Origin: Sulfurimonas crateris
Lineage (GTDB): Bacteria; Campylobacterota; Campylobacteria; Campylobacterales; Sulfurimonadaceae
Reading direction: 5' to 3'
Assembly (NCBI RefSeq): GCF_005217605.1
Contig: NZ_SZPX01000001.1
Coordinates: 186,001-250,000, forward strand
Length of the DNA: 64,000 nucleotides
The notes beneath the pieces are model-generated. The model searched no databases, was not told the DNA's origin, and saw only the letters and a program-made list of their open reading frames with translations. Each line of letters starts with the position of its first letter. The first letter of the stretch is position 1. This document shows positions 4,071 through 7,077 of the stretch, piece after piece. The translations under genes and the position numbers were made by a program.

Positions 4071-6167
4071 TTATATCAGACTAAGTCCGACTTTTCCTTT
4101 CTCTTCATCTATAGAGACGACCTCTATTTGAGGCAGGTATTGGTTAAGTGAGAGTACTTCAAGCGGATGAGAGATCTTTGTTGCACTCATCTTTGAGATG
4201 TGGATCATACCGTCATTTTTGAGCCCGATATCCACAAAAGCCCCAAAATCGGTAATATTTCTAACAATACCAGAGAGAAAATTTCCCACACTCAGCATCT
4301 TTATGTCGGTTATGCCATCCTTAAACGGAATGGGTGGGAGCTCTTCTCTTGGGTCAAAGCCGGGTTTTTGCAGCTCTTTTATAATGTCTTTTAGCGTCTC
4401 TTCTCCGACATTCAGATCAGAAGCTTTTTGTTTGATATCGATTGAGCCTAGATTAACCCCGATGAGTTTCTTCGCAACTTCGTAACTCTCGGGATGTATC
4501 CCGCTGTTGTCAAAAATATTTTTTGAGTTTTTGATGCGGATAAATCCCACCGCCTGCTCGTACGCCTTTTTGCCAAGACCTTTTACTTTTAGAAGCTGCT
4601 CTTTTGTCTTAAATGGACCATTCTCTTCTCTAAAAGCTATGATATTTTGAGCTACTTTTGCGCCTACGCCTGCGACATAAGAGAGAAGCGAGAGTGAAGC
4701 GGAGTTTATATCTACACCTACGCGGTTTACCAAATCTTGCGTGACATCACCCAGTTTCTTCTCTAAAAGTTTCTGGTCAACGTCATGCTGATACTGTCCG
4801 ATGCCCAAGCTTTTAGGGTCTATTTTAACAAGTGCAGCCATCGGGTCTTGAAGCCTTTGAGCAATAGAGATCGCCCCTCTTATGGTCACGTCAAGATTTG
4901 GATACTCCTGCGAAGCTATCTTTGAAGCGGAGTAGACTGAGGCTCCGGCTTCAGAGACGACCGTGAAGTTTAGCTTTGCATCCTCGTCTCTGTTTAGTCG
5001 TGCAAAAAACTCCTGCGTCTCACGCGAGGCAGTACCGTTTCCGATGGCTACGCCCGTGATGTTATACTTGTTAGTTAGTGTTATAACCTTGTTTTTGGAG
5101 TTTTCATAATCCTTTTGAGGCTCCGTTGGATAGATGACACAAGACTCCAGATAGTTGCCATTCTCATCAATGACTGCCAGCTTACAACCTGTTCTAAAAG
5201 CGGGGTCTACTCCCAAAATAACTCTTTTGGTTACAGGCGGGGTCATGAGGAGCTGGTTTAGATTTTTTCCAAAGACCGATATCGCCGCAATATCGGCTCT
5301 CTCTTTTAGCTCGGCTTGGACTTCTCTTTCTATGGAGGGAAGCAGAAGCCTTTTTAACCCGTCTCTGTATGCTTCAAAAAGAAGCTCTTTTGAACTTGAA
5401 GCGTTGCGGGGGATTTTGTACTCTTTTATGTTTGCTTCTATGTAATCGGTATCGATCGTTATCTTTACACTTAGCTCTTTTTCATGTACTCCGCGCATTA
5501 TGGCAAGGTAGCGATGTGATGGAATATAAGCGACCTTTTCGCTTTTTTGGACGAAGTTTTTAAAGAGTCCGTTCTCATCAAAACTCTTTGTCTTTTTAAT
5601 CTCCAAAACTCCATGACGAAGCATATTGTTTCTTATCGCTTCACGCTCACGCGGCATATCTGCATAACGCTCCGCCAAGATATCCTGCGCTCCCTGTACG
5701 GCTTCATCTACGGAGCTAACAGCACCCTTTACAAACTCTTTTGCTTTTGCTTTGAACTCGGCTTGGTTAAGTTGTGCTTTTTGCAAAATATCTGCAAGGG
5801 GAGTAAGTCCGTTTTGCATGGCAGTTGCGGCGCGGGAGTTCTTCTTCTCTTTGTAGGGGCGGTAGATATCTTCTAAAACACGCAAACTATCAGCCTCATC
5901 AATGCTTTTTTTGAGCGCATCGCTAAGTGTTGCTCTCTCGGCGATAAGCCTTAAGATCTCTTCTTTACGCTCTAAAAGTTTTTTGGCACTAACATAGATG
6001 GTCTCAAATTCACGAAGCACTTCATCATCTGCTCCGCCCGTCATCTCTTTACGGTAACGTGCGATAAAGGGGATAGTAGCACCCTCATCAAGAAGCTTTA
6101 GAATATTTTCTATATGTTCACGTTTAAGAGCAATTTTTTTGGTTAGTAAGTCTGTTAAATTATTAAT
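4071..6167 (-). CDS. tex: Tex-family S1 RNA-binding protein with apparent ATT start
   Basis: Tex proteins are conserved nucleic-acid-binding factors with an N-terminal helical region, a YqgF/RNase H-like domain, helix-hairpin-helix motifs and a C-terminal S1 domain. All are visible: ILGVDPAFRTGCKLAVID begins the YqgF domain, the HhH repeats surround YVAGVGAKVAQNI and KVKGLGKKAYEQA, and the S1 domain is near VRNITDFGAFVDIGLKNDG. The first ATG (6044) would delete conserved N-terminal sequence: upstream, in the same frame, is LKREHIENILKLLDEGATIP then FIARYRKE. The frame is closed by TAG at 6177-6179 and contains no ATG, GTG or TTG before MTGG. ATT at 6167-6165, about seven bases after AGGA, is the best start and overlaps the upstream TAA as ATTAA. 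This gives 698 aa. Confidence 0.9.
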   Translation of the reverse strand: MNNLTDLLTKKIALKREHIENILKLLDEGATIPFIARYRKEMTGGADDEVLREFETIYVSAKKLLERKEEILRLIAERATLSDALKKSIDEADSLRVLEDIYRPYKEKKNSRAATAMQNGLTPLADILQKAQLNQAEFKAKAKEFVKGAVSSVDEAVQGAQDILAERYADMPREREAIRNNMLRHGVLEIKKTKSFDENGLFKNFVQKSEKVAYIPSHRYLAIMRGVHEKELSVKITIDTDYIEANIKEYKIPRNASSSKELLFEAYRDGLKRLLLPSIEREVQAELKERADIAAISVFGKNLNQLLMTPPVTKRVILGVDPAFRTGCKLAVIDENGNYLESCVIYPTEPQKDYENSKNKVITLTNKYNITGVAIGNGTASRETQEFFARLNRDEDAKLNFTVVSEAGASVYSASKIASQEYPNLDVTIRGAISIAQRLQDPMAALVKIDPKSLGIGQYQHDVDQKLLEKKLGDVTQDLVNRVGVDINSASLSLLSYVAGVGAKVAQNIIAFREENGPFKTKEQLLKVKGLGKKAYEQAVGFIRIKNSKNIFDNSGIHPESYEVAKKLIGVNLGSIDIKQKASDLNVGEETLKDIIKELQKPGFDPREELPPIPFKDGITDIKMLSVGNFLSGIVRNITDFGAFVDIGLKNDGMIHISKMSATKISHPLEVLSLNQYLPQIEVVSIDEEKGKVGLSLI

Positions 6168-7077
6168 ATTTTTTTCCTACGCACTCTATAAAATCTTTTT
6201 CGCTTATATCTTCTATGAGTGTTTTAAAATTTTTCAAAGCAAATAGTTTAACATCTTCGCCCCTTAGGGCTTTTAACTCATTTGAAAAACCGCCTTTAGA
6301 GACAATAACATAGATGTTAGGCGTTAGTTCGGCTTGAGTGCACTGCTCTTGAAGTTTGCCGAGTTCACTCTTTTTTGCTTTTTGGTTGGAGTATTTGCAT
6401 ATTCCCGCCACAACTTTTCCAGACTTCGTCTTTGCCAAGATATCTATCTGCGCTCTTCTGTCCCAGTAGCTTCCTATCTCGACGATCTGGTCATCTTTGA
6501 AGCTCTTTTTTATGAGTTCGTGTGAGAGTTTTTTAAAAGTAAGTTCGTAAAATTCGCTTTTTCGGTTGGCAAATGCCTCTTTTGATTCTTTGAAATCGCC
6601 ATCTTTGATGCTCTTAAAATATGGTGAGACAAAAGCGAACCAAAAACGCATAAAAGGGGTGCCAAAATTTAGTTTTTCATCTATCTTTTCATCATCGATC
6701 GGCGGAGATTCAAGCGAGTATTCACGCTTTAGGATGTTTTTATCGCAAAGATCATCTATAGCCTCTTCCCCCTCAGCTCTTGAGATGCGTGCTCTCTTTA
6801 GCGCAGAGTGAACTCTGCCATCACCCGTTGCTGCGGCGCTTAAGAGAGCGTGGCTTGTTTTGTCGCTTCGGGTGATCTTTGTAATATCGCCGTGAATATA
6901 GGTGTAGTTTTTTAAAACCTTGCTCTCTATGAGCTCTTCAAGCGATTTACTCAAGTCAACACTCCAGCTCATGCCGCCAAATACCGAAAAGTATTCTATT
7001 GCCTTTTGAATATCATCAGCCTTGTTTTGATAACAAAAGGAGCGGAACTGCTCTAGAAGCGTGGGGTATTTTGCCAT
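6163..7077 (-). CDS. DUF234 / PD-(D/E)XK nuclease-like protein
   Basis: 304 aa. The N-terminal ~130 residues look like winged-helix DNA-binding sequence (ITKITRSDKTSHALLSAAAT and SRAEGEEAIDDLCDK). The C-terminal half resembles DUF234, a PD-(D/E)XK-like fold: E in IVEIGSYWD, D in AQIDILAK, then a spaced Lys in AGICKYSN. Archaeal relatives are fused to a P-loop ATPase; no ATPase is present here. Its TAA shares a base with the apparent tex start, suggesting coupling. Nuclease activity is inferred, not shown. Confidence 0.7.
   Translation of the reverse strand: MAKYPTLLEQFRSFCYQNKADDIQKAIEYFSVFGGMSWSVDLSKSLEELIESKVLKNYTYIHGDITKITRSDKTSHALLSAAATGDGRVHSALKRARISRAEGEEAIDDLCDKNILKREYSLESPPIDDEKIDEKLNFGTPFMRFWFAFVSPYFKSIKDGDFKESKEAFANRKSEFYELTFKKLSHELIKKSFKDDQIVEIGSYWDRRAQIDILAKTKSGKVVAGICKYSNQKAKKSELGKLQEQCTQAELTPNIYVIVSKGGFSNELKALRGEDVKLFALKNFKTLIEDISEKDFIECVGKKY

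Follow-up and report, generated by a model that had tools for sequence, protein, structure and literature searches.

Which codon starts translation of tex in Sulfurimonas crateris? The 64,000-nucleotide stretch of its genome analysed here (the window; the assembly has 2.2 Mb in 11 contigs) contains a complete gene for the transcription factor Tex on the minus strand, and codon 42 is the earliest ATG, GTG or TTG in its frame. We found that an ATT overlapping the stop codon of the upstream DUF234 gene is the most plausible start. Our best explanation as a whole, to which we assign a probability of about 0.85, is that tex starts at this ATT, that the ATT is conserved and bound to the overlap, that tex is translated by reinitiation coupled to DUF234, and that the junction arose by deletion.

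The start of tex in the window

The features of the locus are as follows.

6163 to 7077, minus strand: DUF234 gene, 304 aa, upstream of tex, ending in TAT TAA (PF03008, E 2.7e-13)
6177 to 6179, minus strand: TAG in the tex frame, four codons before ATT, closing the frame upstream
6175 to 6178, minus strand: AGGA, Shine-Dalgarno-like, inside the DUF234 coding sequence, with 7 nt between AGGA and ATT
6165 to 6167, minus strand: ATT, putative tex start codon, read as fMet, aligned with the ATG of relatives and located at the pN/pS switch
6163 to 6165, minus strand: TAA stop of the DUF234 gene, its T being the third base of the putative tex start
6042 to 6044, minus strand: first ATG of the tex frame, Met42 in RYRKEMTGG, the pick of the ORF list (4071 to 6044, 657 aa)
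4071 to 6167, minus strand: tex, 698 codons from ATT to stop, with Tex_N, Tex central, YqgF, HHH and S1 domains

On the minus strand the junction reads ...GAGTGC GTAGGAAAAAAATATTAATAATTTAACAGAC... and the tex frame reads TAG GAA AAA AAT ATT AAT AAT TTA ACA GAC, remaining open to 4071. The initial annotation had stated that no ATG, GTG or TTG lies between the TAG (6179-6177) and the ATG at 6044-6042, and the sequence confirms this. In all, 44 in-frame codons precede the first of these codons in tex. Since this is the longest such stretch among the complete long open frames of the window, where the next-highest values are 26 and 22, we regard it as beyond chance.

A profile search of the tex product found the domains of the Tex family in order (Tex_N, Tex_YqgF, HHH, S1), with these matches.

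tex residues 3-75: PF09371 (Tex_N), profile positions 2-74 of 75
tex residues 139-299: PF22706
tex residues 316-440: PF16921
tex residues 480-544: PF12836
tex residues 550-607: PF17674
tex residues 627-697: PF00575

The product also matches Pseudomonas Tex (PDB 3bzc/2oce, E about 4e-149). The Tex_N profile begins right behind the ATT and is complete only with an ATT start. We then calculated pN/pS pairwise among the genomes that carry this ATT. In the tex frame the ratio was 0.80 over the 40 codons upstream of ATT, fell to 0.17 across codons 2-41 and was 0.13 in the remainder of the gene. When the stretch upstream of ATT was read in the DUF234 frame instead, it gave 0.18. This pattern on both sides indicates that the coding frame switches from DUF234 to tex at the ATT. 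The earlier view that the conserved Tex N-terminus runs upstream of the first ATG, toward the TAG at 6177-6179, is thus supported by both the profile and the selection data.

The ORF list places the start at Met42 (ATG 6044), the first standard start codon; if Tex began there or at another downstream codon, the preceding 41 codons would be untranslated. However, those codons are under protein-level selection, Tex_N would lose about half its profile, and the FIARYRKE motif is conserved across relatives and is internal where relatives have their own upstream ATG. We consider a Met42 start extremely improbable and rejected it on Tex_N coverage and pN/pS; the listed start sits too far downstream, as judged from the sequence.

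The selection data also bear on a second alternative, a DUF234-Tex fusion arising at the A7 run that precedes the DUF234 stop, through +1 frameshifting or slippage of the polymerase. The window does have GGAAAAAAATATTAA, where ribosomes slipping by +1 on the lysine codons would continue in the tex frame past the TAG. However, relatives with the same ATT have GGAAAGAAATATTAA, GGAAAGAGATATTAA or GGGAAAAAGATATTAA at this place, the tex frame upstream of ATT is not under selection, and relatives have a separate Tex with its own ATG. The fusion is very improbable, and we rejected it for lack of conservation of the A run.

The AGGA at 6178-6175 lies 7 nt before the ATT, in agreement with the spacing of about seven bases given initially. 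The predicted duplex with the anti-Shine-Dalgarno sequence is -4.2 kcal/mol in the window and ranges from -4.2 to -8.4 across all 17 ATT genomes of our first set. Mean pairing was stronger at ATT starts than at the ATG starts of orthologues (-5.5 versus -2.5 kcal/mol). The site in the window is modest, as 14% of random 17-mers within its DUF234 gene pair equally well. Predicted RNA folds of the junction were not stronger than those of shuffled sequences in the window, and gave a mixed result in other genomes. Based on the onset of Tex_N, the onset of selection and the preceding Shine-Dalgarno-like stretch, we accept ATT as the probable start codon of tex.

The DUF234 and tex coding regions overlap by 5 nt (6167-6163, ATTAA), and the T at 6165 is common to both, as had been described. 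DUF234 and tex thus form a same-strand stop/start overlap of the kind expected of a termination-reinitiation pair. In a 5-nt overlap the stop fills positions 3-5 of tex, so the start codon can only end in T, which excludes ATG, GTG and TTG. To regain any of the three at tex, the DUF234 stop must move. This constraint was missing from the initial annotation, whose sequence details all proved correct.

Start codon and overlap among relatives

We inspected the start of tex at about 120 loci from relatives, a comparison that had been proposed for this codon. ATT occupies the aligned Met position in 18 distinct Sulfurimonas genomes, 17 in the first set and one (L115) added later. All 18 genomes with the DUF234/tex overlap have ATT, the overlap being AT[TAA], with TAG in one genome. 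In that genome (L048) the stop has switched from TAA to TAG while ATT was retained. In the 17 genomes the DUF234 stop always begins 2 nt into the ATT codon, and the junction of L115 is identical in sequence. Among the roughly 120 loci, no ATT was found at the tex start position without the overlap. Where the overlap is missing, this codon is ATG in most relatives (62 distinct loci), which places the ATT at 6167-6165 where a Met is expected. Sequencing error as the source of the ATT was ruled out by its identity in 18 genomes. The gene shows a start position for which no NTG gives the conserved N-terminus, a codon that is conserved and aligned with Met, and selection from ATT onward and not before.

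The loci without the overlap differ in what lies upstream of tex. In L049 and L179 DUF234 is directly upstream and ends 3-6 nt before the tex ATG. In L018, L043, L045 and L021 a dksA/TraR-like gene lies between DUF234 and tex, and tex starts with ATG. This intervening zinc-finger gene has about 115 codons, and in L018 it ends in a TGA that shares bases with the tex ATG (ATGA). In L016 and L017 DUF234 is more than 1.2 kb from tex, which again starts with ATG; in L016 an opposite-strand GGDEF-like gene lies between them. The remaining relatives have no adjoining DUF234 and mostly ATG, often after a TATAAT-like box.

Nine of the 17 ATT genomes have no ATG, GTG or TTG ahead of the FIARYRKE motif. 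The other eight have an unconserved in-frame GTG, 5-12 codons upstream of ATT, that is potentially usable there. Where such a GTG is present, at least 5 codons upstream, it could be the real start and ATT an internal Ile codon; several ATT genomes have it in frame at a distance of 5 codons, and L019 at a greater one. However, it is absent or blocked by a TAG in the window and eight others, and the tex frame before ATT is unselected. We rejected the upstream GTG, which is not conserved, and regard it as highly improbable.

The penultimate DUF234 codon, which precedes the stop, is TAT in all 17 ATT genomes and mostly TAC in non-overlapping relatives. Of 20 further Tyr columns conserved in tex and DUF234, none is invariant for TAT. 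Among two-fold codons overall, 16 of 119 conserved columns are likewise invariant and T-ending, so the constancy of TAT alone is weak to moderate evidence. Part of the constancy of both TAT and ATT follows from the overlap itself and from common descent.

Two further observations were made while reading these loci. In L083, a Campylobacterales MAG, tex has no in-frame ATG, GTG or TTG before the conserved motif, and the same sequence is present in L171. An ATC (ATC GAA AAT TCA AAA CTA) lies about 6 bases before the aligned position, shortly behind AAGG and just past a TATAAT-like box. It may be another non-canonical start, distinct from the ATT, or one assembly may contain an error. In three draft genomes (G009:C4, G083:C8, G050:C68) tex is seemingly broken, with matches in at least two pieces, some with stops.

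Origin of the ATT junction

We propose that a small deletion removed the original ATG, kept the tex frame and left ATT as the nearest start. The junction of L179, where the two genes do not overlap, reads TATTAA-TCTATGAA-CAACTTA, also written GATATTAA-TCTATGAA-CAACTTA. Loss of the 8 nt TCTATGAA from it gives GATATTAACAACTTA, which is a junction of the ATT type; for comparison, L011 has GATATTAACACCTTA and L007 has AATATTAACAATTTA.

The gene trees disagree on whether ATT arose once or twice. In the DUF234 tree L016, L017, L019 and L048 cluster with one another, close to the main ATT group. This fits one origin of ATT followed by a return to ATG in L016 and L017 once the genes had separated. In contrast, the tex tree places L019 and L048 apart, which implies two changes of state, and a single ATT clade was rejected (AU p 0.015). 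Residues 1-60 of tex in L019 and L048 are near the main ATT group (L010), whereas the body of the gene is nearer other species. This suggests recombination around the junction in these two genomes.

Probable initiation on AUU, and other non-canonical starts

Overlapping gene pairs are usually translationally coupled: strict coupling was seen in 13 of the 14 pairs tested in Haloferax and E. coli (PMC6728339). On this ground termination-reinitiation from DUF234 is the likeliest mode of tex initiation, a conclusion we hold at somewhat better than even odds. The ribosome that finishes DUF234 at the UAA would be kept near the Shine-Dalgarno-like stretch in the DUF234 tail, and the same ribosome would reinitiate on AUU with initiator tRNA. 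The outcome would be a low level of Tex, tied to translation of DUF234. A low level is expected since AUU and AUA starts gave about 10% of the output of AUG in an S. aureus reporter (PMC13009471). We advance more tentatively, at a little under even odds, the fuller reading that AUUAA is a working stop-start overlap that excludes NTG, on which a pre-placed terminating ribosome restarts at AUU, so that a weak start is stably kept across a group of species and Tex is coupled to DUF234.

The Shine-Dalgarno-like stretch present in all ATT genomes could also serve independent initiation on ATT, uncoupled from DUF234. The weak codon would then limit the dosage of Tex, as the reporter output of AUU and AUA would allow, with control by IF3 as in sigR or pcnB; IF3 is known to repress the GTC start of Streptomyces sigR (PMC5472188). 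However, no ATT is seen outside the overlap, and loci with a broken overlap have ATG; this is more in keeping with a by-product of the overlap than with a codon selected to limit dosage. The start of infC in this genus, described below, also speaks against IF3 control. We consider independent initiation unlikely and favour reinitiation from DUF234.

The initial annotation had hinted at autoregulation through IF3, which our data do not support. The infC start was read in the genome of the window (L140:695-1210) and, among loci L141-L169, in 28 further genomes of the genus. All 29 Sulfurimonas genomes read have TTG as the infC start codon, which shares bases with the thrS stop (TTGA). Since infC uses TTG, feedback of the infC type through a non-NTG codon is absent here, and tex itself does not encode IF3. 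In each of the 29 genomes GAGGTAAAT, or a sequence very similar to it, precedes the TTGA. IF3 reduces initiation on non-canonical codons and also reinitiation without a Shine-Dalgarno sequence (PMC2268962), and for this reason tex may be IF3-sensitive without autoregulation. By analogy with sigR, repression of tex by IF3 is possible. In E. coli, translation of pcnB is described as limited by the AUU start, and not as autoregulated (Binns & Masters 2002, as cited in PMC13009471). It resembles tex as a gene that starts with AUU and does not encode IF3, and tex may likewise be limited by its start.

The studied non-NTG starts named in the literature are those of infC, pcnB, cvfC1, ccpN and sigR. 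We know of no stop codon overlapping the start of pcnB in E. coli. The infC start is AUU in E. coli and B. subtilis, AUA in S. aureus and ATC in Streptomyces (PMC1805508, PMC13009471, PMC5472188). It is conserved and non-NTG like that of tex, but infC encodes IF3 and controls itself, whereas tex encodes an elongation-type factor and its ATT overlaps a stop. Both cvfC1 (AUU) and ccpN (AUA) of Staphylococcus aureus share with tex a non-canonical start conserved across species and Shine-Dalgarno pairing; unlike in tex the pairing is extended and strong, and cvfC1 is first in its operon and not coupled through a stop overlap (PMC13009471). Streptomyces sigR is likewise a regulatory protein gene behind a genus-conserved non-canonical start, but its start is GTC and not ATT, and its repression by IF3 has been demonstrated (PMC5472188), whereas for tex such repression is a possibility. 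In ATGA and TGATG pairs with termination-reinitiation (PMC6728339) the stop and start share bases, as for DUF234/tex, and the Shine-Dalgarno sequence lies inside the upstream gene, where DUF234 has its modest Shine-Dalgarno-like stretch. The DUF234/tex overlap differs in being 5 nt long (ATTAA) and in a register that excludes NTG.

In the literature searched, which was covered in part, we found no report of the Sulfurimonas tex start, nor of any AUU start in bacteria that shares bases with a stop codon. It is well supported by the comparison of genomes that tex adds a real, conserved new case to the rare genes with an AUU start (infC, pcnB, cvfC1). Natural AUU starts outside infC are few, and that of tex is conserved in 18 genomes. 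Close relatives with a broken overlap and an ATG provide a natural experiment on the loss and regain of a start codon. The locus also predicts a class of start/stop overlaps in which gene finders limited to ATG, GTG and TTG would systematically truncate the downstream gene. DUF234/tex offers a clean test case of whether termination-reinitiation relaxes the choice of start codon.
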